A stretch of 64,000 bases of DNA from assembly GCA_034521575.1 (NCBI GenBank), contig JAXHMJ010000002.1, positions 652,706 to 716,705 of the forward strand, read 5' to 3'. The notes beneath the pieces are model-generated. The model made no database searches, had not been told where the DNA came from, and saw nothing but the letters and a program-made list of their open reading frames with translations. Position numbers and translations under genes: made by a program. The stretch is from a candidate division KSB1 bacterium (lineage in GTDB: Bacteria; Zhuqueibacterota; Zhuqueibacteria; Residuimicrobiales; Krinioviventaceae). This document shows, in pieces, positions 3,637 to 17,519 of the stretch (its first letter is position 1; each line of letters begins with the position of its first letter).

Positions 3637-4955
3637 GTGATCGATCTCAAAAAAACTGCATGGTTGTCTGCATGTATCATAATACTTTTAACATCAACAG
3701 GTCTGTTTGCAGAGGAATCCGGTGATTCATCGCAAATGGCACTTTTTACCATCAATAATACCTGGATGCTGGTTGCAACGTTTCTGGTATTTATTATGCA
3801 CCTTGGTTTTGCGACGCTTGAGGTTGGATTGACCCGGGCAAAAAATACCGTTAATATATTATTCAAAAACACCCTGATTGTGGCGATTGGCCTGTTGACC
3901 TATACGCTGATTGGTTTTAATCTCATGTATCCCGGCGATACCTGGATGCTGGGAAAGGTGCTGGGATTTGCCGGATTGGGTATCGGAACCGATGCGGCCG
4001 GTATTACACCTGCTTATAACATCGGGTATACTTACTGGACGGATTTTCTGTTTCAGGCCATGTTTGCAGCCACCGCTGCGACCATTGTTTCCGGTGCGGT
4101 GGCCGAACGCATCAAGCTGGATGCGTTTTTGATTTTTTCCGCGGTGTACGTCGCTGTGATCTATCCCATTGTCGGTTCCTGGGGATGGGGCGGAGGTTGG
4201 CTGGATTCCATCAATTTTCATGATTTTGCCGGTTCAACCTTTGTGCATTCCGTCGGCGGCTGGGCTGCACTCGCCGGTGTTATTGTGCTGGGACCGCGGC
4301 TTGGAAAATATGTGAACGGCCATATTAAACCCATTATGGGACATAACATGCCGCTGGCCGCCATCGGTGTGTTTCTGCTCTGGCTCGGCTGGTTTGGATT
4401 CAACGGCGGTTCAGTATTGTCGGCAAATCCGGGCGGAGTCAGTTATGTGTTTGTGACCACCACTCTGGCAGCCGCCTCGGGAATTGTCATTGCCATGATG
4501 ACCTCATGGATCATTCAGAAAAAGCCGGATTTGTCTATGGTCCTGAACGGCTGTCTGGCCGGACTTGTCGGGATTACAGCCGGAGCCGATGTGGTGTCGA
4601 TTGTCTCGGCTATTGTCATCGGCGGTATTGCCGGATTCATCGTGGTGGTGTCTGTTTTAACCATTGACAAGCTGCATCTGGATGATCCGGTGGGTGCGCT
4701 TTCCGTTCACCTGATCTGCGGTGTATGGGGGACACTGGCGGTTGGATTGTTCAGCAGCGAGTTTAGTTTTCTCTCGCACTGGCCGGTGTGGCCGGCGCGG
4801 CTGCCCTGTGTTTGCCGGTGGCGTTGGGACTTTTTGCTGTGCTCAAGAAAACCATGGGAATCCGGGTGAGCGAACAAGAGGAACTGCGCGGCCTGGATAT
4901 CGGTGAGCACAGTATGGAAGCCTATAGCGGATTTCAGATTTTTATTACAGAATAG
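3637..4955 (+). CDS. amt: Ammonium transporter AmtB (frameshifted near 4770)
   Basis: Starts at GTG after TGGAGG. A signal-peptide-like segment (cleavage probably after GLFA) is followed by about eleven membrane helices of the Amt/Rh family. The channel twin histidines are visible in [10 protein letters not shown] and [12 protein letters not shown]. The first frame runs off after [11 protein letters not shown] and stops at 4869. In the next frame the family's last helix ([20 protein letters not shown]) and cytoplasmic tail ([19 protein letters not shown], then a GF tail) continue to a TAG at 4953-4955. The change lies around 4767-4775. Both halves are conserved, so one base is probably missing from the consensus. 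Partner of the adjacent PII protein. Confidence 0.9.
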
Positions 4956-5030: not shown

Positions 5031-7834
5031 CAAGAGGGAACATTTTAAAGTCTGCTGTTCATCACGTGTTTGCAGTTTTATGAAATAAATCCCGCTGCTA
5101 TGATACGAAGCATCCCATGTATAGTCATAATATCCGGCCTGGAGGTCGCGTTTTATCAGCGTTTGCACGCGGTTTCCCAGAATATTATAAACAGCAATGC
5201 TCGATCAATCCGAATCGGGGAACCTCAACTTTAATCGTTGTGCTCGGATTGAAAGGATTGGGAAAAGCTGACAGTCTGAATTGATCCGGGAGCGCCGGAT
5301 GTTGAGCCACTGATGTTGTGCTGTCAATGACTGTGATATAGTCTTCAAAAGTCTGTGAAGCAAGTGAAGATAGTCTCCTTATTACCAATTTGACTGTGTA
5401 GGTTCCCGGTTCAGTGTAGGTATGGACAGGATGGTGTTCGGTGCTGACGGTTCCGTCGCCGAATGTCCAGCGCCGTTCAGTGACAAGGCCGCTGGATTGA
5501 TCACGGAATTGAGTTGTGAACGGGGCCTGACCTATTGTGTCATCCGCTGTAAAGGCCGGATCGACATCAAACAGATCATCAGAAAAGGCAACATAATCCG
5601 CCCAGATATCGCGTTTGCTTATATCCTGATGGTGAGAGTTCATCCATGTCAGCAGTGCAACCGTATCCGAGCAGGCAATGGAGGGCGCTGCTTTTTGCGC
5701 CCGCAAGTCAAACCGCGAGGCCCGGGCAATCGGACTCAATTTGCCGTTTTCATTTAAAAAGCGAAATTCGAGTTTGTAAGGCGGATCATCATATTGACCG
5801 CGTCACCCAGTATAAAAGTCCGCCGCCGCTCGGATGCACCGCAATATCCACACGTTCTTTGCCGGTGTCATCTGCGTTGATTCGTATCTCCTTCCCCGCT
5901 GGTTTGCCGCTGTTTGAATACCGTCGGCAGTAAACCGAGGCGTTAAACTGATCACGGCGGTAGTCCAACCAGGTGATCATCAAGTTATTATCTCGGTCCA
6001 TATCCAGTTTGGGTTGACTGGCATTGCCACTGTCGCCTGCAACTTTGAACGTATCAACAATCAAATCGCCTTTTGAATCATAAACACGGCCATAGACAGC
6101 AGATGAGACCAGGAACGGCGGCGTGATATGAGTTGCCTGCCAGGCAACCGCAAACCGTCCGTTGCCGCTGCCGGCCACGCAAGCGGCGGAGGCATTGTCA
6201 AAATCGCTGGAAATTACAAAATTCCCGCCCAGCGGTGAACCTGACTTGAAAAGCTGACCTGTTATTTGTCCGGTATTCGTATTTTCCCAAACTACGAGGG
6301 CGGTGTCGCCGTTCATTGCCGCAAAAGATTCCTCACAGCTCATACCCAGGTCATTCACACGCACATTGCCGCCGGAAAGAGCGCCGACCAGTTCGATAGA
6401 CTGCAGATAAATATCCTGTTCCTGAGAATCGCGATGGTCTTCCCAGACCACAACCACATGATCACCCACACCGACATCGGGATGCGAACCGGTATTGGTT
6501 TCGCATACATTTACATTTTCCTCAATATAATCCGGTTCAGGGCTCAAAAGCTGTACCCTTATCTCGCCATTTTCATGACCATGCCAGGTTACAGCCGCAT
6601 AGCCAGTCGTTTTATCCATCGCTGTTTGCGGATAGGCGGCATCGGATCCGGGTCTCAGTGTATAGACATAAGGTTTGGTTTGATAGCCGTTTTGATTACG
6701 TCTGCCCAGAACCATCCCGCTATAGCCGGAACTGTAAAGCATCCAGGTATCGTTATTCGATCCCAGAGCCGGCACAGCATATCCATGCATGTCATCCCGG
6801 GTGATATCGTGGAAAATGTTTACAGGGCCCCAGATATTATCCAGATGGGAATTCATTTGTTCAGTCAGCAGAACATGATCAAGAGACGATCCCCAGAGGG
6901 CAACCACTGAATTTGAAGAGCCGACATCCAGACCCAGCAAACGGTCGGTTACATGATACTGGTTTTTTTCGAGGTATACAGGCGATGTTGCCATGCCTCC
7001 ATTCGCACTCAGCTGGCAGCATTTGATGTTAACATAGTTATCCTCAAACGGTTGATAGAGTATAGTGGTTTTTCCATTGTTGTCTGCATCCATCAACGGA
7101 GGGTATGGAATCGACGACGGTGTCGAGTCAATGGTAAAGTCATTTTTAATGACGGTCAAATTCCCCGAATAATCATAAATTTTTCCTTTCAAATCTCCAT
7201 CGGCCCAGATCGTCAGGAATTTGCTGTCCGGCAGTAGTTGCACGTTGGGGCAAACAGCATCAGTCGAGATGATAAACGAATTTGCAGTGGGCGCAGGAAC
7301 GGGGGGAATGAGAGCGCCTTCCAGTTCGTGGGCCGGATTCCGTGTTTCCCACACCGCAACGGCGAATCCCTGTTCGTTGATACTGACCTGGATATTGTCC
7401 CGAGTGGCCCGTTTCGTGAATCCGGCATCAATTCGGACAGCATCCCGTTCATACAGTGAATTATCATAGTTTACCCGTTTGATGTATACTTTGCTGTTTT
7501 TGATCCATGCCACAATAAAATTTCCATCGTTTGAAATAGAAAGCGCGTATTGGCTTTTGACATTAGTGAAATCATGTTCAATCTCGAATGGTTCGGTGAG
7601 TATAACACCGGAATTGGACAACCGTTGTCCATACAATGCATAGTAAAAAGAAGGTGAATGTGTGGGACGATAGGCCTCAACCCAGGTTAACAGCATTTTT
7701 CCGCTTGCGTCAGTATGCAGATCGCCGAATTTAAAGTTTTCCGGAGAAATCCTGCTGATTTGAAAGTCCTGATCCAGCAAGTCCATTGAATAACAAGTTG
7801 CCAAAAGCATGAAAATACATAATAAAGTTTTCAT
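5025..7834 (-). CDS. Secreted PKD-domain protein with T9SS/FlgD-like C-terminal domain (two frameshifts)
   Basis: Unrecognised secreted protein of about 935 residues. A signal peptide (MKTLLCIFMLLATCYS) starts at 7834 after a GGGGTG site. Residues 20-680 hold repeated beta-rich units with recurring WEDHRDSQ/WLDYRRDQ-type motifs ending in Tyr-rich strands, probably a beta-propeller or similar. The first frame ends at 5789 (WVTRSI); shifting near 5790 continues as QYDDPPYKLEFRFLNENGK and into a PKD fold (WTFGDGTVS...HTYTEPGTYTVKLVI). A second shift near 5195 restores the tail after AFPNPFNPSTTIKV: SIAVYNILGNRVQTLI...SSGIYFIKL, the FlgD-like/T9SS sorting domain seen in FCB bacteria. The stop is at 5025-5027. 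Likely surface-attached or released; substrate unknown. Confidence 0.75.
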
Positions 7835-7844
7835 GACGCACCCC

Positions 7845-7880
7845 GCTATGTTGTGAAAATATAGCTATGTTGTGAGAATA
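7845..7880. repeat. Tandem 17-base direct repeat
   Basis: GCTATGTTGTGAAAATA (7845-7861) and GCTATGTTGTGAGAATA (7864-7880) differ at one position and are offset by 19 bases. They lie just upstream of the start of the minus-strand secreted protein. They could be an operator for that gene or a local duplication; no family is recognised. Confidence 0.6.
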
Positions 7881-7982
7881 AAAAGGTGATCGCGGGAGCG
7901 GAAGAATCAACGGAAGGAAACAGATATGACCACCCACTAAAAAAAGTAAGAAATACTATAAGGAAATCAAAGAAAAAAGTGC

Positions 7983-8011
7983 TTGCTCTGAATAAAAAAA
8001 AATTGTATCTT
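7983..8011 (+). promoter_or_regulatory. Candidate sigma-70 promoter of the aromatic operon
   Basis: TTGCTC (7983-7988) and TATCTT (8006-8011) are separated by 17 bases. The predicted start near 8018 falls just before the leader-peptide ribosome site. Spacing is ideal but both hexamers are imperfect. Confidence 0.5.
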
Positions 8012-8037
8012 TAGTGAAGTATAAAGGAGATTTTTGA

Positions 8038-8094
8038 ATGTTTTATTTTTTTTACAACTATTATTTTTATTTTACCTGTAGCGGCAAAGGTTAG
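8038..8094 (+). CDS. Phe/Tyr-rich attenuator leader peptide
   Basis: An 18-residue ORF, MFYFFYNYYFYFTCSGKG, with an AAAGGAG ribosome site (8023-8029) 8 bases before the ATG. Ten of residues 2-12 are Phe (5) or Tyr (5), with one Asn as the only exception. It sits directly ahead of the chorismate mutase/DAHP synthase/prephenate dehydrogenase operon. It overlaps the first arm of the antiterminator and precedes an intrinsic terminator. This is the classic design of a transcription-attenuation leader: the ribosome stalls at the Phe/Tyr codons when these charged tRNAs are scarce. The sequence features are seen directly; the regulatory role is inference from the trp/phe paradigm. Confidence 0.9.
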   Translation: MFYFFYNYYFYFTCSGKG

Positions 8095-8135
8095 CACGGA
8101 GACGCCGAATACTATCATTCAACGCTAACTTTGCC
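8083..8135 (+). promoter_or_regulatory. Antiterminator stem of the Phe/Tyr attenuator
   Basis: GGCAAAGGTTAGC (8083-8095), which includes the leader stop codon, can pair with GCTAACTTTGCC (8124-8135): 12 base pairs with one bulged G. The 3' arm shares GCC (8133-8135) with the 5' arm of the terminator, so the two stems exclude each other. A ribosome stalled at the Phe/Tyr run (8041-8073) leaves the 5' arm free, giving read-through. A ribosome at the stop codon covers it, giving termination. Confidence 0.8.
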
Positions 8136-8161
8136 CACTTTTTCGAGTGGGCTTTTTTTTT
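8133..8161 (+). terminator. Attenuator terminator before the shikimate operon
   Basis: GCCCACT (8133-8139) and AGTGGGC (8146-8152) form a perfect 7-bp stem with a 6-base loop, followed by nine T (8153-8161). It lies 14 bases before the first structural gene, so it must be bypassed for expression. Confidence 0.92.
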
Positions 8162-8174
8162 ATAGGTGATGCAG

Positions 8175-8429
8175 ATGAGTCTGAAAAAATACCGTTCCGA
8201 CATCGATCAGATCGATCAAAAACTTCTTGAACTGCTGAACTCGCGAGCGGATATTGCGCAAAAGATCGGCCGTGAAAAATCGCGTGCGGATATGCCGGTC
8301 GTCAACCAAAAACGCGAACAGGATATTTTGCATCGGATGGTCGGATTGAATCCGGGACCGTTGAAAGACAGGGATATTATCGATATTTATAAACAAATCA
8401 TTGCTGCCTGCAGAGAAATTCAAAACTGA
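8175..8429 (+). CDS. Chorismate mutase (AroQ fold, monofunctional)
   Basis: An 84-residue all-helical chorismate mutase that turns chorismate into prephenate. The ATG at 8175 is preferred because AGGTGA lies just upstream; earlier GTG/ATG codons at 8166 and 8169 fall against the attenuator T-run. Landmarks are YRSDIDQIDQKLLELLNSRADIA with the active-site Arg and the later KIGREK segment, KREQDIL and the YKQIIAACREIQ helix. It lacks fused dehydratase, dehydrogenase or DAHP synthase domains, so it works beside the separately encoded TyrA. First structural gene after the Phe/Tyr attenuator. Confidence 0.9.
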   Translation: MSLKKYRSDIDQIDQKLLELLNSRADIAQKIGREKSRADMPVVNQKREQDILHRMVGLNPGPLKDRDIIDIYKQIIAACREIQN

Positions 8430-8456: not shown

Positions 8457-9473
8457 GTGGTCATTGTTATGAAAGATACGGCAACCGTGGAACAGGTTGA
8501 AACCGTATCCAATCGCTTAAAAGAAATCGGATTTGATGTTCACAAGGTGGTTGGTGTCAACCGCACCATCCTGGGCGCCCTGGGTGAAGTACGCGGTGTT
8601 GATCAGAGAGAATTCGAGATCATGGACAGTGTGTTTGAAGTGATTCGTATATCCGAGCCCTATAAACTGGCGGGTCGAACGTTTCATGCCGAAGATTCCG
8701 TGATCAAGGTCAAGGATGCGGTATTCGGGGGCGATCATATTTCCGTTATTGCAGGACCCTGCTCGATTGAGAGCGAAGAGCAGTTGTTCACCATTGCCAA
8801 AGCCGTCAAGGATGCCGGAGCCAAAGTCCTGCGCGGCGGGGCGTACAAACCGAGAACATCGCCTTATTCGTTCCAGGGGATGGGAGAAGAGGGCCTGAAA
8901 CTGCTAAAGCAGGCGGGCGAAGAGTTTAATATTCCCACTATTTCCGAGGTGATGCGTGAAAATCAGGTTGAATTAATGAGTGAATATGTCGATATTCTGC
9001 AAGTGGGCGCCCGCAATATGCAGAATTTCCCTTTATTGCGTGAGCTCGGCAAAATCAAAAAGCCCGTATTGCTAAAGCGGGGTATGTCCGCGCTGATCGA
9101 GGAACTGCTTATGGCTGCTGAATATGTGATGGCCGGCGGCAATTATGACGTGATTCTCTGCGAGCGCGGCATTCGGACGTTTGAGACCTATACTCGCAAT
9201 ACACTTGATATTTCAGCTATTCCTGTCGTAAAAAAGACCAGTCATCTTCCGATTGTTGCGGACCCCAGCCACGGCACCGGGATTCGTGAAAAGGTAGCCC
9301 CTATGGCCCGCGCAGCGGTTGCGGCCGGCGCTGACGGATTGATGGTGGAGGTGCATCACGATCCGGATCATGCAATGTCGGACGGCCCGCAGTCTCTGCA
9401 TCCCAAACAGTTCAGTCGGCTTATGGAAGAGATCCGTATGATCGCCTGGGCTATCGGCCGCAACGTGGATTAG
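8457..9473 (+). CDS. aroF: 3-deoxy-7-phosphoheptulonate (DAHP) synthase, type I-beta
   Basis: First shikimate step: condenses phosphoenolpyruvate and erythrose 4-phosphate. The GTG at 8457 follows AGAGGTG. Residues 1-70 form the N-terminal ferredoxin-like domain typical of Thermotoga-type I-beta enzymes, which usually confers Tyr/Phe feedback. The barrel carries [11 protein letters not shown] (99-109), [35 protein letters not shown] and the metal/substrate motif DPSHGTG. At 338 residues it is the usual length. End-product inhibition would complement the transcriptional attenuation upstream, though that inhibition is inferred from family knowledge only. Confidence 0.95.
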
Positions 9474-9493: not shown

Positions 9494-10606
9494 ATGTCAA
9501 CATGTGATCATTTCAAAACCATCAGTATTATCGGCGTTGGATTGATCGGAGGATCACTGGGACTTGCACTGCGGCGCAAAAAATTCAGAGGCCGGGTTAT
9601 TGGTATCGATGATCCCTATGTTCTCGAAAACGCTCTCAAACGCGGAGCCATCGATGAAGGCATCTCCCGTATCAATATCAAAGACGGTCTTGAACATTCC
9701 GACCTGGTCTTTCTGTGCACACCCATCACTGATATAATGCAGCTGTTGAAGGAAATCGGCGATTATGTAAAATCCGGGACGTTGATCACCGACGTGGGCA
9801 GTATCAAACGCCAGATTGTAGAAACTGCCAATTTGCATCTGCCGTCCAGCTGCAGCTTCATCGGCGGACACCCCATGGCCGGATCCGAATTCCGGGGCGT
9901 GCATGCTGCTGATCCGTTTTTGTTTGAGAATACTTCTTATGTGCTCACACCCAGCCGGCCTGTGGATGTCAGCAAACGTCAGGCTCTGGGTGAACTGCTT
10001 GAATGCATCGGCGCCAAGGTGCTGCTGCTACAGCCCAAACTGCATGACGAAATCGCGGGCGCGGTCAGCCATCTGCCTCAAATGGCCGCGATCGCGTTGA
10101 TGAATCTGGTCGCCAAAAAGCAGACAGAAAGTCCGCATTTTCTCAAAATGGCCGCCGGCGGATTCAGGGATATGACCCGCATTGCCTCCAGTCCGTTCGG
10201 CATTTGGGAAGATATCTGCGACACCAATGCAGATATGATTACCGGATTTATTGATGCGTATGTAAAAGAACTGGAGGAGTTGAAAGGTATTATTAACAAC
10301 AAGGGAAAACTCGAATCCTATTTTCATGATGCTGCCAAAAACCGCCTGTCCATTCCCACGGATACCAAGGGATTTTTGAATCCCCAGTATGAGATTAGTG
10401 TGTCCGTTGAAGACCGTCCCGGTATCATTGCGGATATCGCGGGGACGCTTGCAAAGGAGAGTATTAATATCAAAGACATCGAAGTTCTGAAAATCAGAGA
10501 AGATGAAGGCGGTACCATCCGTCTTGCATTTGCCGGAGAATCCGAACAAACCAGCGCGATCGAATTGTTACAGAAACACGGCTTTGAGTGCCGGAAGCGA
10601 GGTTAA
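9494..10606 (+). CDS. tyrA: Prephenate dehydrogenase with C-terminal ACT domain
   Basis: Oxidatively decarboxylates prephenate to 4-hydroxyphenylpyruvate, the route to tyrosine. The ATG follows AGGAGG. The NAD-binding motif GVGLIGGS occupies residues 14-21; GGHPMAGSE and the catalytic-domain helices (LHDEIAGAVSHLPQM, GGFRDMTRIA) follow. The last ~75 residues (YEISVSVEDRPGIIADIAGT...) are an ACT domain, expected to bind tyrosine as feedback inhibitor. At 370 residues it is the normal TyrA-ACT length. It sits between DAHP synthase and aroA; no prephenate dehydratase is in the operon, so the phenylalanine branch must be completed elsewhere. Confidence 0.95.
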   Translation: MSTCDHFKTISIIGVGLIGGSLGLALRRKKFRGRVIGIDDPYVLENALKRGAIDEGISRINIKDGLEHSDLVFLCTPITDIMQLLKEIGDYVKSGTLITDVGSIKRQIVETANLHLPSSCSFIGGHPMAGSEFRGVHAADPFLFENTSYVLTPSRPVDVSKRQALGELLECIGAKVLLLQPKLHDEIAGAVSHLPQMAAIALMNLVAKKQTESPHFLKMAAGGFRDMTRIASSPFGIWEDICDTNADMITGFIDAYVKELEELKGIINNKGKLESYFHDAAKNRLSIPTDTKGFLNPQYEISVSVEDRPGIIADIAGTLAKESINIKDIEVLKIREDEGGTIRLAFAGESEQTSAIELLQKHGFECRKRG

Positions 10607-10608
10607 TT

Positions 10609-11892
10609 ATGTCAGAGCGTCGTATCAAACCCGTCAGTCGGGTTGATGGAAACATACGTGTGCCCGGCGACAAATCTATTTCGCATCGGGCGCTTATTTT
10701 CAATGCCATCGCAAAAGGAGAGAGCCGGATCACCGGGCTGTTGAATTCCGCTGATGTAAAAAGCACTGAAAACTGTCTAAAGCAATTGGGCGTGTCCATC
10801 GAGGACCATGAAAACGGCAAGAAGATTATAGGCAGGGGGATTGAAGGACTGGAGCAGCCGTCTGAACCGCTAAATGCCGGAAATTCCGGAACCACCATCC
10901 GGCTGTTGAGCGGCGTTCTGGCATCGCTGCCGTTCGTCACGGAAATTACCGGAGACGAGTCTTTGATAAACCGTCCCATGCGCCGCATCATAGAGCCGCT
11001 GGAACAAATGTACGCGACCGTGGAAAGTGACAACTACCGCGCGCCGCTCAAAATACGAGGCGGACATTTGAACGCGATTGATTACAGCACTCGCATCTCG
11101 AGCGCTCAGGTCAAATCCTGTATTCTGCTGGCCGGTCTGTCTGCCAAAGGCATGACTCAAATCACGGAACCCTACCGGTCTCGTGACCACAGTGAACGCA
11201 TGCTATCGGATATGCAGGTCACCATCAAACAGACACAGACCATCGTCGCCATCAAAGGACCGACTGTGCCGGTTGCCTGCGATATCGATGTGCCCGGCGA
11301 TATTTCCGCAGCGGCGTTTTTCATCGCCGCCGCGGCGCTTTTACCCGATTCCGAACTGCTGTTAGAGAATGTGGGCATTAACCCGGCGCGCACCGGCGTT
11401 TTGGATGCACTCAGCGCCATGGGCGCGCAATTTCAATACAAAAACCAGGTCGAGATAAACCGGGAACCCCGGGCTGATATTCGCGTGATTTCCTCCAAAC
11501 TGAATTCGACCCATATTTCCGGTCCCATGATCCCGAGCATCATCGACGAGATTCCCATTCTGGCGGTTGCCGCTACCCAGGCGCACGGCACCACCACCAT
11601 CCGGGATGCCGGAGAACTGCGCGTCAAGGAATCCGATCGAATTTCCGCGCTTGTCGACAACCTCAAGCGGATGGGTGCGGATGTCCGGGAAAAAAAAGAC
11701 GGTTTGGTCATCAAAGGTCCGGTTCAGCTCAAAGGCGCTGAAATTGACAGTTACAAGGATCACCGTATTGCTATGGCATTCAGCATTGCCGGACTGATCG
11801 CGAAAGGCGAAACCGTGATCAAAGATACGGATTGTGTGTCCGTGAGTTTTCCTGATTTTTATGAAAAATTGGAACACCTGACTCGTGATTAA
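10609..11892 (+). CDS. aroA: EPSP synthase (3-phosphoshikimate 1-carboxyvinyltransferase)
   Basis: Sixth shikimate step. The ATG at 10609 lies 8 bases after GAGGTT and 2 bases after the tyrA stop. An upstream in-frame ATG at 10588 would overlap tyrA and lacks a ribosome site. The 427-residue product carries PGDKSISHRALIFNAIAKGE, NAGNSGTTIRLLSG, the DEIPILA motif and RVKESDRIS, all active-site landmarks. DYSTRISSAQVKSCILLAGL resembles class II-type enzymes. No truncation or frame change. The 3' end overlaps aroE by 8 bases, suggesting coupled translation. Confidence 0.96.
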   Translation: MSERRIKPVSRVDGNIRVPGDKSISHRALIFNAIAKGESRITGLLNSADVKSTENCLKQLGVSIEDHENGKKIIGRGIEGLEQPSEPLNAGNSGTTIRLLSGVLASLPFVTEITGDESLINRPMRRIIEPLEQMYATVESDNYRAPLKIRGGHLNAIDYSTRISSAQVKSCILLAGLSAKGMTQITEPYRSRDHSERMLSDMQVTIKQTQTIVAIKGPTVPVACDIDVPGDISAAAFFIAAAALLPDSELLLENVGINPARTGVLDALSAMGAQFQYKNQVEINREPRADIRVISSKLNSTHISGPMIPSIIDEIPILAVAATQAHGTTTIRDAGELRVKESDRISALVDNLKRMGADVREKKDGLVIKGPVQLKGAEIDSYKDHRIAMAFSIAGLIAKGETVIKDTDCVSVSFPDFYEKLEHLTRD

Positions 11893-12724
11893 AGGGTCCA
11901 CTGACATTTATGCGGTCATCGGAGACCCCGTTGAGCACAGCCTGTCCCCGCTGATGCAGAACTATTTGATCAAACTATTTGATCTGGACGCGGTATATGC
12001 GGCCTGTCATGTGCGCTCCAAAGACCTTAAAACGGCTCTGGCGGGACTGCAGGCGTTGAATATAAAAGGTATCAACGTCACATTGCCGCATAAAATCAAG
12101 GTGCGAGCTTTTTGCCGGACAGTTTCTAAAGATGTTGAAACATTGGGCGCGGCCAACACCATTACTCCGGATGAAACAGGCCTTTGTGCTGATGTGACGG
12201 ATCACGCCGGATTTCTCGAATCATTGGGAGATCGGCAAAGCCTGTTCCGGGGAAATGCTGTTTGTATGTTGGGCGCCGGCGGCGCCGCGCGTTCGATTCT
12301 CTATGCATTATCACAGCTTGAGGTGGATCGGGTGTCAATTTATAACCGGACGCGCGAGAACGCGGAGCAGCTCATCCGCGAGGCTGCACAGTCTTTCGGG
12401 TTCACATCGGCTGAGAGCGTCGCGCAAAGTGAGCTGAACCGCACGATCGAATCCAGCTCTATTGTGATCAATACAACCTCGGTCGGGATGCATCCGCACA
12501 TCGAGGCCACCCTCTGCGGTGATGATGCGCCGTTTTCCAGGCGCCATTTTGTCTATGATCTGATTTACAATCCGTTGCAAACCCGACTGTTGCGTACCGC
12601 AAAATCCAAAGGCGCGTTTGTGCAGAACGGACTGGATATGCTTATCTTTCAGGGTCTGCAGTCGCTGCGCATCTGGACCGGACAAAATCTGCAAGCTGAC
12701 GCCGGAGCAACTAAAAGAATGTAG
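11885..12724 (+). CDS. aroE: Shikimate dehydrogenase
   Basis: Reduces 3-dehydroshikimate to shikimate with NADPH. The GTG at 11885 overlaps the aroA stop. The 279-residue protein has [16 protein letters not shown] (shikimate-binding Ser pair), NVTLPHKIK with the catalytic Lys, the nucleotide motif [17 protein letters not shown] as the NADP-recognition region, NTTSVGMHP and the C-terminal [11 protein letters not shown]. The catalytic Asp region reads DVTDHAGF instead of the commoner NTDxxG, a mild variation. Length and domain order are ordinary. Confidence 0.95.
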
Positions 12725-12747: not shown

Positions 12748-13939
12748 ATGAATAGACTGCGTTTTTTGACAGCCGGCGAATCGCATGGGCCGGCGCTCAA
12801 CTGCATTATCGAGGGACTTCCGGCCGGACTGCCGCTCACGGAAGATGATATTGTCCGTGATTTAAAACGCCGGCAAAAAGGATACGGTCGCGGCGGACGT
12901 ATGCAGATTGAAAAAGACAAGGCAAACATACTCAGCGGAGTGCGCTATGGCAGCACACTGGGGAGTCCGGTGTCTCTGGTGCTGCATAACAAGGACTGGC
13001 CCAACTGGACGCATAAAATGAGCGCAGACCCGGTTCAATATCCGGTGGATAAACTGCAGATGCCTCGTCCCGGACATGCCGACTTTGCCGGCATGGTCAA
13101 GTACCGCCAGGATGATCTGCGCAATATTCTGGAACGCTCGTCAGCGCGCGAAACCACCGATGCGTGTGGCCGCAGGCGCCGCCGCCAGACAGCTGCTGGC
13201 GCAGTTTAATATCCGGATTTACAGCCATGTAACGCGTATTGGTCCGGCTGTATCGGACAATTCTCGAATTGATCATCCATTGGCGCCCGGTACTGAGGAA
13301 TGGACGGCATTTTTTAAACGCGCCGAGGAATCGGATGTGTCCTGCACCGATGCAAAGGCCGGTGATACCATGCGCGCGGCGATTGATCAGGCAAAAAAGC
13401 AGGGGTATTCGCTGGGCGGACTGGTGGAATGCATTGCCTGCGGTGTGCCGGTGGGACTGGGCAGTCATGTTCACTGGGACCGCAAACTGGATGCAATGCT
13501 CGCGTACAGCATGATGAGTATCAATGCCATCAAAATGGTCGAGATCGGACTGGGCGGGCGTGTCTCGCAAACCCCCGGTTCGCTTGTGCACGATGAACTG
13601 TTTTACAGCAAAGAATCCGGTTATAGCCGCAGTCACAATCATGCCGGCGGTATTGAAGGTGGGATGAGCAACGGCGAACCCATTGTGGTGCGTCTGGCCA
13701 TGAAACCACTGCCGACCATGACCGCACCGCTGCGGTCCGTGAATGTCAAAAACAAATCCGCAAAAGAAGCGCATTATGAACGCGCGGATGTCTGTGCCGT
13801 ACCGGCAGCTGCTGTGGTGGGAGAAGCAATGATGGCTTTGACTCTGGCCGATGCCCTGATGGACAAAATCGGCGGAGATTCCGTCAATGAAATGACTGAA
13901 CGTTTTAACGCATTGCCGCATGTACCCCTGGAGTGGTAA
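12748..13939 (+). CDS. aroC: Chorismate synthase (frameshifted near 13158)
   Basis: Last shikimate step: eliminates phosphate from EPSP with reduced FMN. Frame 1 begins [17 protein letters not shown] (the first family signature) and runs through RPGHADFAG and [10 protein letters not shown], then derails to a stop at 13209. The true continuation ([18 protein letters not shown], then [19 protein letters not shown] and [10 protein letters not shown]-like segments to 13939) is in another frame. Removing one G around 13159 gives SSARETTMRVAAGA without other change. The total of 1192 bases fits one extra base and about 396 residues, the normal length. As chorismate synthase is normally indispensable, a consensus error is the likeliest cause. 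Confidence 0.92.
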
Positions 13940-14456
13940 AAATATTTATTTTATCGGGTTTATGGCTGCCGGAAAATCGACCATCGGCAGCGCGTTTGCC
14001 TCTTATCTCGGCTGGCCGTTTGTGGATACCGATACCTATATTGAAGAATCCGCGGGCAAATCCGTGCCTGAAATATTTGCCGAACAGGGCGAAACAGCGT
14101 TCCGGGATATGGAGACAGACGCCATCCGAAACCTGGCGCAGCGCAAAAATACGGTCATCGCTCTCGGCGGCGGCGCTGTATTGCGCGAGGAAAACTGGCA
14201 GCTGCTTGATGCGTCGGGTATAACCATCTGGCTCAATATTCCGGTGAGCGCTGTGGATCGGCGGGTGGCGACATCCTCACAGCGTCCGCTGCTGGCCGGA
14301 CTGTCCGATTCTGAACGCCGTAAAAAAATCCGCACCATGATGCAGGCGCGTAAACTCTATTATCAACGAGCCCGGGTGAAAATAAACTGCAGCGGAAAAC
14401 AACCTGTGAATAAAGTCGTTTTTGATTTGTTTGAAAGACTGTTATATGAATCGTGA
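13920..14456 (+). CDS. aroK: Shikimate kinase
   Basis: Phosphorylates shikimate at O3 with ATP. The 178-residue P-loop kinase has GFMAAGKST (residues 13-21), the shikimate-binding DTD at the end of strand 2, the FRDMET region and the GGGAV loop, then a lid with RPLLAG. The ATG at 13920 overlaps the end of aroC by 20 bases; no good independent ribosome site is seen, so coupling to aroC is likely. Its end overlaps the aroB start. Confidence 0.95.
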   Translation: MYPWSGKNIYFIGFMAAGKSTIGSAFASYLGWPFVDTDTYIEESAGKSVPEIFAEQGETAFRDMETDAIRNLAQRKNTVIALGGGAVLREENWQLLDASGITIWLNIPVSAVDRRVATSSQRPLLAGLSDSERRKKIRTMMQARKLYYQRARVKINCSGKQPVNKVVFDLFERLLYES

Positions 14457-15543
14457 AATTATTGTCAATACAGGCGAACCTTATCCCATTTATATCCGGC
14501 AGGGGGGACTGGGTGAACTGGCTGAACTTTTGCATCAGCACGAGCTGGCGCGTCAGGTTTTTATCATCACCGATGAACATGTGGCGCCGCTGTACGCCAA
14601 TGCCGCGCTGCAGCATCTGCGTCAGGAAGGCTTTCACTCGGAACACGTTGTGCTGGCCGCCGGTGAACGCACCAAATCCCCGGAATCGGCTGAAAAACTG
14701 TATACCTGGCTGATTGAAAATCAGGCCGGCCGCGATTCGGTGATTATCGCATTCGGCGGCGGTGTGATCGGTGATCTGGCCGGATTTGTGGCAGCAACCT
14801 ATATGCGCGGTGTGCCGCTGGTGCAGATTCCCACTACGGTATTAAGTCAGGTGGATTCAAGTGTGGGAGGCAAGGTCGGTATTAACCATCCACTGGGTAA
14901 AAATATGATCGGCGCCTTTTATCAGCCGAAATTTGTACTCATTGATCCGAATGTGCTGCATACCCTGTCACAGCGGCAGACCCGCGCCGGATTCGGTGAG
15001 GTGGTCAAATACGGTTTTATCGCTGATGTTGAACTGTTCCATCTGCTTGCAGAATCTCTCGACAATCTCCTGGCGTTGAATGACATGGAACACCTGCAGT
15101 CAGTGCTGGAAACCTGCTGTCAGATCAAAGCGGATGTGGTGGCCCAGGATGAACGGGAAAGCGGTCTGCGCGCTATACTGAATTTCGGCCATACCATCGG
15201 TCATGCTCTGGAAGCACTGACGCAATATGAGCATTTTCTACACGGCGAAGCCGTGGTGCACGGTATGAAAGCCGCGCTTTACCTGTCTTATCTCAAGGGG
15301 TATCTGGAACGCTCTACCGTTGAAAAAAGCATTCTGCTGCTCAACCGCTTTGATCCTCCCGCCATCCCCGCTTCCATCGATGATGTTGAACTGTTGAATG
15401 CGACGAAACACGATAAAAAGCGGTCATCCACGGGTCAGACCTGGGTGCTGCTGCAGAAACCGGGACGCGCACACCTGGAGCAGGACGTGACCGATGACTG
15501 TATCCGTCAGAGTATTGCATTTATGAAAGAAATGGATCACTAG
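14446..15543 (+). CDS. aroB: 3-dehydroquinate synthase
   Basis: Second shikimate step: cyclises DAHP using bound NAD and a divalent metal. The ATG at 14446, overlapping the aroK stop, gives 365 residues and the natural start MNREIIVNTGEPYPIYI. An earlier in-frame ATG at 14422 lies deeper inside aroK. Motifs: AAGERTKS, FGGGVIGDLAGFVAATYMRG, PTTVLSQVDSSVGGKVGIN, KNMIGAFYQP, the metal ligand segment EVVKYG, NFGHTIGHALE and HGEAV. Complete and uninterrupted. Confidence 0.96.
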   Translation: MNREIIVNTGEPYPIYIRQGGLGELAELLHQHELARQVFIITDEHVAPLYANAALQHLRQEGFHSEHVVLAAGERTKSPESAEKLYTWLIENQAGRDSVIIAFGGGVIGDLAGFVAATYMRGVPLVQIPTTVLSQVDSSVGGKVGINHPLGKNMIGAFYQPKFVLIDPNVLHTLSQRQTRAGFGEVVKYGFIADVELFHLLAESLDNLLALNDMEHLQSVLETCCQIKADVVAQDERESGLRAILNFGHTIGHALEALTQYEHFLHGEAVVHGMKAALYLSYLKGYLERSTVEKSILLLNRFDPPAIPASIDDVELLNATKHDKKRSSTGQTWVLLQKPGRAHLEQDVTDDCIRQSIAFMKEMDH

Positions 15544-15999
15544 ATGAAACCGCGGATTTTAATTGTACACGGACCGAATCTGAATCTCCTGGGCGAACGC
15601 GAGCCGGATGTTTACGGCACAGCCACACTCAAAGATGTGAATGCAGCAATCCGCAGCAAAGCACGCGAGCTAAATGTCAAACCGGTCTTTTATCAGTCCA
15701 ATCACGAAGGCCGGATCATTGATTTTCTGCACCGTCAGCGCAAAACAGTTAGGGGACTGGTGATCAATCCCGGCGCTTTGACGCATTACAGCTATGCCCT
15801 GCACGACGCGATTATCGGTATTTGCCTGCCGGCCGTGGAAGTGCATCTGTCAGATATTCACAAGCGTGAAGAATTCAGGCGGATTTCTGTTACCCGGCCG
15901 GCTTGCTTGAAACAGATCAGCGGCAAGGGGATTGAGGGGTATGTTGAGGGTCTGGAGTTTATTACAGATATTTTGAACAACGAATCGAAAACAGAATAA
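15544..15999 (+). CDS. aroQ: 3-dehydroquinate dehydratase, type II
   Basis: Third shikimate step. The start codon directly follows the aroB stop. The 151-residue protein has GPNLNLLGEREPDVYG, including the catalytic Tyr, QSNHEGRIIDF, INPGALTHYSYALHDA and VEVHLSDIHKREEFR with the catalytic His. These are hallmarks of the dodecameric type II enzyme. It closes the operon; with the upstream genes all seven steps from PEP plus erythrose 4-phosphate to chorismate are encoded together. No clear terminator follows. Confidence 0.95.
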   Translation: MKPRILIVHGPNLNLLGEREPDVYGTATLKDVNAAIRSKARELNVKPVFYQSNHEGRIIDFLHRQRKTVRGLVINPGALTHYSYALHDAIIGICLPAVEVHLSDIHKREEFRRISVTRPACLKQISGKGIEGYVEGLEFITDILNNESKTE

Positions 16000-17179: not shown

Positions 17180-17519
17180 AAAAAAAAATCCTTTTGATTG
17201 ATTTTTACGATGATAAAAAACACAAAATTGAGGTTATGATGCAACATTGGTAAAGCAGTTAACACAAAAAAAAGACGCACCGTAGAACAGTACATACCCT
17301 AGTACGTACTATTTTATCTCAATAGTATTTATTAATATACAAAATTTAATTGACTTTTCCGATGTGCAAATAATCCGAGCTTCCGGTTTTCCAATTTCAA
17401 TTCACGATTCACCACTTGAAAATATCGCATTCCGATTCATTATTTTTACTTGATTCTGATATGACAAACTGTTAGCTTTAAAGAGTTCTGTGATCATTGA
17501 CCCTCAAAACGGAATGAAC
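17180..17519. other. AT-rich divergent intergenic region
   Basis: About 340 bases between the cupin (minus) and the PL8 lyase (plus) with no supported gene. A short palindromic patch with AGTACGTACT-like symmetry lies at about 17285-17311. TTGACT near 17351 could be part of a promoter for the lyase, but no convincing -10 follows at ideal spacing. Confidence 0.5.

Follow-up and report, generated by a model that had tools for sequence, protein, structure and literature searches.

In E. coli, the pheL leader (of pheA) and the trpL leader each sense a single amino acid, serve a single terminal branch and form a 1:2 hairpin. In the multivalent attenuators of ilvGMEDA and thrABC one leader reads the codons of several end products, these being branched-chain amino acids or Thr/Ile. 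A few leader-peptide systems in Bacteroidetes/Chlorobi are also said to have been listed by Vitreschak in 2004. A survey of 2010 (PMC2965389) places leader-peptide systems in Proteobacteria and Actinobacteria and adds Firmicutes to them, and a paper of 2005 (PMC1173090) lists putative attenuators that precede aromatic supraoperons. The aroF operon of C. glutamicum is preceded by a leader, aroR, that contains the stretch Phe-Tyr-Phe and responds to Phe and not to Tyr (Neshat 2014, reviewed in PMC11802643). Two candidate regulatory uORFs with notable Phe and Tyr content have been linked to shikimate metabolism genes (Stav 2019; PMC6429828, Fig. 6b), and uORFC-13-1, the aroF leader of Acholeplasma (PMC8632094), has at least one Phe codon and a terminator before DAHP synthase.

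The locus described here lies in a 64-kb window (the whole stretch of DNA that was analysed). It has in common with aroR, as reviewed, a Phe and Tyr leader before a DAHP synthase operon and a readthrough that would depend on ribosome stalling; it is unlike aroR, which has its one Phe-Tyr-Phe stretch in an actinobacterium, in offering 10 control codons and in preceding the complete common pathway together with chorismate mutase (CM) and tyrA. With the uORFs of Stav 2019 it shares a predicted Phe/Tyr uORF associated with shikimate genes (PMC6429828). Those uORFs come from other bacteria (Clostridium novyi and Thermovirga lienii are among the five genomes), the likeness concerns the residues and gene context given in the figure legend, and the passages on them mention no Trp or His variants such as are present in this lineage. 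UORFC-13-1 is limited to Acholeplasma and environmental sequences, with no Tyr stated (PMC8632094). As in pheL and trpL, a stalled ribosome would free a region 2 that pairs with region 3 and blocks a terminator; unlike them, the present leader has codons for two amino acids, heads the whole common pathway and has no 1:2 hairpin that we could see. It is set apart from ilvGMEDA and thrABC by its concern with aromatic amino acids and by a codon set that shifts with operon fusion. The first-pass annotation regarded a mixed Phe and Tyr leader as unusual; it is less so: Stav 2019 (PMC6429828) had already predicted such leaders before shikimate genes, and one, aroR of C. glutamicum, had been tested (PMC11802643). 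The mechanism is classical, and what appears to be new is its occurrence in this lineage and a series of leader codons that tracks operon content: in the open-access literature we found no earlier report of such an attenuator in this lineage, or of leaders combining Phe, Tyr and Trp or His, Phe, Trp and Tyr.

Table 1. Features of the leader region and of the aromatic operon (window coordinates).
Feature	Coordinates	Strand	Basis
Predicted promoter, TTGCTC (7983-7988), 17 nt, TATCTT (8006-8011)	7983..8011	+	position relative to relatives' boxes
Shine-Dalgarno site AAAGGAG of leader ORF	8023..8029	+	sequence
Leader peptide ORF, MFYFFYNYYFYFTCSGKG then stop	8038..8094	+	read from sequence; Phe+Tyr leaders at equivalent place in 29 loci
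Control codons 2-12 (5 Phe, 5 Tyr, 1 Asn)	8041..8073	+	sequence, relatives' leaders, masked folding
Region 2, predicted antiterminator 5' arm; includes the leader's final codons and stop	8083..8095	+	relatives' pairing, covariation, masked folding
Region 3, predicted antiterminator 3' arm, overlapping terminator 5' arm	8124..8135	+	relatives' pairing, covariation, masked folding
Intrinsic terminator, arms 8133-8139 and 8146-8152, plus nine T	8133..8161	+	sequence, folds; counterpart in 29/29 loci
Chorismate mutase (CM type II), candidate starts 8166, 8169, 8175	8175..8429	+	Pfam PF01817, E=1.1e-21
DAHP synthase, N-terminal ferredoxin-like domain	8457..9473	+	PF18152, PF00793; NF006421
tyrA, prephenate dehydrogenase with ACT domain	9494..10606	+	profile search
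aroA, EPSP synthase	10588..11892	+	TIGR01356
aroE, shikimate dehydrogenase	11885..12724	+	TIGR00507
aroC, chorismate synthase, in two frames, break near 13160	12748..13939	+	NF003793
aroK, shikimate kinase	13920..14456	+	profile search
aroB, 3-dehydroquinate synthase	14449..15543	+	TIGR01357
aroQ, type II 3-dehydroquinate dehydratase; final operon gene	15544..15999	+	TIGR01088

The leader ORF is 18 codons long, of which the first 12 hold 5 Phe and 5 Tyr (ATG TTT TAT TTT TTT TAC AAC TAT TAT TTT TAT TTT ACC TGT AGC GGC AAA GGT TAG), and its ATG follows a strong Shine-Dalgarno site at a spacing of 8 nt; the earlier description of both proved exact to the base. Boxes resembling TTGACA-16/17-TATATT are found in many relatives, ending about 40 nt 5' of the leader ATG. 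Their predicted counterpart in the window is a weak promoter match, and a simple promoter scan favoured another site there. A direct repeat, GCTATGTTGTGA, at 7845-7856 and 7864-7875 (19 nt apart), lies in the gap that divides the leader from the divergent gene and is possibly an operator. The upstream neighbour (5789-7834) is on the minus strand, divergent from the leader; because it runs the opposite way, the terminator following the leader is not that of an upstream gene, and this identity is ruled out.

In Gram-positive bacteria, aromatic genes are under the control of T-boxes and similar leaders, and a leader that binds tRNA, as a T-box does, or a metabolite could in principle govern the terminator here. 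That reading is almost certainly wrong for this locus: at Rfam thresholds no family is found anywhere in the window (Trp_leader scores 17.4 bits against a gathering threshold of 41; the T-box motif, RF00230, is absent), and a permissive Rfam scan of 7830-8200 yields just sub-threshold, chance-level matches. A T-box or riboswitch identity was accordingly rejected. Pfam and NCBIfam scans of the leader peptides match no leader family.

Region 2, GGCAAAG(G)TTAGC, pairs with region 3, GCTAACTTTGCC, in 12 bp with one bulged G. The terminator reads GCCCACT...AGTGGGC (8133-8152) with its nine T at 8153-8161, so the overlapping stem, the terminator and the T run, all noted previously, are confirmed to the base; the strict overlap of the two structures in the window is GCC, 3 nt. 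The minimum-energy fold of the window retains a 9-bp remnant of the antiterminator stem alongside the terminator. Ribosome stalling was modelled by folding the window RNA under a ribosome-sized mask. As long as the terminator 3' arm is not yet made, the antiterminator pairs that overlap the terminator form with p=0.99 while the A site lies within codons 2-10 and p=0.66 at codon 11, and with a probability of 0 from codon 12 through the stop codon; region 2 is hidden by a ribosome at the stop codon and free with a ribosome at the control codons. At equilibrium, on the other hand, leaving region 2 free does not prevent the terminator from being the more stable structure, by 6.4 kcal/mol in the window (0.7 to 16.7 kcal/mol in relatives). 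Thus, the proposal that stalling exposes and completion hides the antiterminator holds in masked folds that precede synthesis of the 3' arm, and must be qualified in the sense that the switch has to be kinetic, since the terminator is the more stable structure once its 3' arm has been made. In the window, the switch may be leaky. Neither the minimum-energy nor the masked folds of the window contain a 1:2 protector/pause hairpin, which is typical of trpL and was not counted as defining for attenuators of the trpL/pheL type.

The features by which attenuators of that type are recognized are found together at this locus: clustered end-product codons in a leader ORF, a terminator before the first gene, and a covarying antiterminator that competes for the terminator 5' arm, if only through the 3-nt strict overlap in the window. 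The element is very likely a ribosome-mediated transcription attenuator, judged from its sequence and that of its relatives, because leader and terminator are conserved and the pairing of regions 2 and 3 covaries in a genome-specific manner. Translation of the leader, stalling and readthrough would then proceed as follows. RNA polymerase would initiate just 5' of 8038 and a ribosome translate the leader. When charged tRNA-Phe or tRNA-Tyr is scarce, the ribosome would stall in codons 2-11, leaving region 2 free to capture region 3 before the terminator 3' arm exists; the terminator would fail, and CM, DAHP synthase, tyrA and the remaining aro genes would be transcribed. When both charged tRNAs are ample, a ribosome at the stop codon would cover region 2 and the terminator would form. 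In a lineage that has been little studied, classical leader-peptide attenuation would head the whole aromatic pathway and control the trp and his operons as well.

The equivalent loci in relatives were found through their DAHP synthase, and the start codon was picked manually in several of their leaders. In 29 loci of the same class, which belong to the window's own family and to many further ones, a Phe and Tyr leader is accompanied by a terminator, 21-52 nt 3' of the leader stop, and by a leader-end segment complementary to the terminator 5' arm. Phe and Tyr are both present within the richest 12 residues of all 29 leaders (Trp in 3). The region 2:3 duplex averages -18.8 kcal/mol for a genome's own arms and -13.9 kcal/mol when arms are swapped from one genome to another (0 of 5000 permutations did as well). 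The pairing exceeds that of dinucleotide shuffles with a combined p of 1.6e-31. Several Watson-Crick pair types occur at terminator positions +4 to +10 (for example TA, AT, CG and GC at +7 and +8), per-position counts that are biased towards pairs by the duplex program's choice of the best pairing, the swap test being the cleaner control. The alignment of relatives' leaders that had been suggested as a check therefore strongly bears the attenuator out: no leader lacks Phe or Tyr, no locus lacks a terminator, and the covarying pairing is specific to each genome.

These comparisons also weigh on two other explanations. In this AT-rich region a U-rich ORF might have arisen by chance beside an ordinary terminator, Phe and Tyr codons being themselves rich in U; that origin is extremely improbable for an arrangement kept, with covarying antiterminators, over many families of the class, next to an upstream gene on the opposite strand, and in which Trp (TGG) and His codons arise exactly in those operons that have taken in trp and his genes. 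The leader is, moreover, the sole such ORF in the window: one leader-sized ORF with at least 8 Phe/Tyr in 12 codons exists on both strands of the 64 kb, and a terminator follows it. Alternatively, since free amino acids can be sensed by leader peptides (Trp by TnaC; PMC8429421), the nascent peptide might arrest its ribosome upon binding free Phe or Tyr. This is very improbable: peptide sequences vary widely among genomes, with composition alone kept, and the conserved C-terminal letters, resembling SGKD, fall on region 2, where the RNA itself is constrained.

Beyond the class, several genomes of the phylum have a Phe/Tyr leader and a terminator 5' of chorismate mutase or DAHP synthase. Leader-like ORFs rich in Phe/Tyr, several with ends resembling YFYFP, precede these genes in other classes of the phylum (loci L144-L147). 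Phe/Tyr-rich ORFs with a terminator also precede aroF in Clostridia and in one Fusobacteria record (L080, L081, L085, L086, L093, L097, L100, L102, L109), several of them with a common ...FSAG.F motif. We do not claim these last as the same element; their region 2:3 pairing is mostly no better than that of shuffles.

The operon behind the leader covers all seven steps to chorismate on one strand and ends at 15999, and the first long plus-strand ORF after aroQ starts at 17490. The first-pass annotation called it a complete shikimate operon, which stands for CM, DAHP synthase, tyrA, aroA, aroE, aroC, aroK, aroB and aroQ, with the reservations that aroC is split between frames and that pheA is absent. 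Two overlapping ORFs hold the aroC halves, which match positions 1-122 and 123-343 of the NF003793 profile, and the frameshift is either an indel of the assembly or a true break in the gene. Elsewhere in the window, an ammonium-transporter-like ORF (3637-4869) loses, judged by eye, the expected C-terminal reading near 4720, probably by a frameshift, and two adjoining minus-strand ORFs (5185-7834) resemble, by eye, one broken secreted protein with a terminal FPNPFNPSTT sorting-like motif.

Leader codons follow operon content. In this lineage Trp-run leaders precede trpE and His-run leaders precede hisG, as in the window's own genome, where MNLVLNINNANFWWWWTFITRCATGK with a terminator stands before trpE (G000:C5:589236-590606, L156) and MYCHHHSHHHHSKILSGGG with a terminator before hisG (G000:C3:628678-629232, L189). 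In three families (f9, f10, f11) the trp genes and CM-aroF form one row (in four loci trpEGDCFBA, then CM, aroF, tyrA, aroA and more), with a single leader before trpE that has Phe, Tyr and Trp; MKISLSTYFVNFGFWFWYWYYYYARGGKAMSGLT and MKAIHSTSAYWFWYWYYYASSGMDMFASRI are examples. All three residues are present in 10/10 fused trp-aro leaders, and Trp in 10/10 of these vs 3/29 aro-only leaders, the ten including two read by eye (G062, G031) and two whose contig stops before CM-aroF and whose fusion is assumed (G031, G039). Rank tests (Trp, fused vs aro-only, p 1.3e-8; Tyr, fused vs trp-only, p 1.5e-5) overstate the number of independent events because the loci are related, the three operon types requiring just 3 changes on the DAHP synthase tree. 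In one genus (f6, three genomes) the row is CM, a trpB-like gene, aroF, tyrA, aroA, aroE, aroC, aroK, aroB, aroQ and hisG, with aroQ adjoining hisG; the leaders before it (L205-L207, L217-L219) have His, Phe, Trp and Tyr (...HFSHHWFWYWYYH...), and these rows showed no additional His leader followed by a terminator. Where a second DAHP synthase ends the trp operon (G029, G040, G046), the leader there is Trp-only and the main aro operon stays Phe and Tyr.

This series bears on the question of whether the Tyr codons act. They need not, because aroR of C. glutamicum, with its Phe-Tyr-Phe, is described in the review (Neshat 2014, via PMC11802643) as responding to Phe and not to Tyr, and the attenuator might sense Phe alone, with Tyr codons tolerated since TAT/TAC suit a U-rich stretch. 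We consider this unlikely: Tyr is present in 29/29 leaders and outnumbers Phe on average (4.5 vs 3.9 per leader), tyrA is within the operon, and where trp genes join it the leader gains Trp codons and not just Phe. Dual Phe/Tyr sensing is the likely reading.

In fused leaders the core is of the aro type, with a region 2 near AGTGGGAAGGAT and the terminator CCCACT, and not of the trp type, CGCCGTGGATGCA..., that precedes most trp-only operons, which suggests that aro leaders acquired Trp and His codons as operons merged. We think it fairly probable that one conserved RNA switch, with a region 2 and a terminator like those just given, has been re-coded within the phylum on operon fusion, from Phe and Tyr (aro) to Phe, Tyr and Trp (trp-aro) and to His, Phe, Trp and Tyr (CM-trpB-aro-his), so that the leader would act as a two-, three- or four-input sensor fitted to the products of its operon. 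Together with the Trp leaders, the series would amount to a natural experiment on how a multi-input attenuator evolves when operons merge. The loci where trp and CM-aroF genes form a row and the trpE leader combines Phe, Tyr and Trp are L198, L199, L203, L204 and L209-L213; the fused row of G035 (L211) also includes a gene that, by eye, resembles tryptophanyl-tRNA synthetase (11117-12106 after reverse complement).
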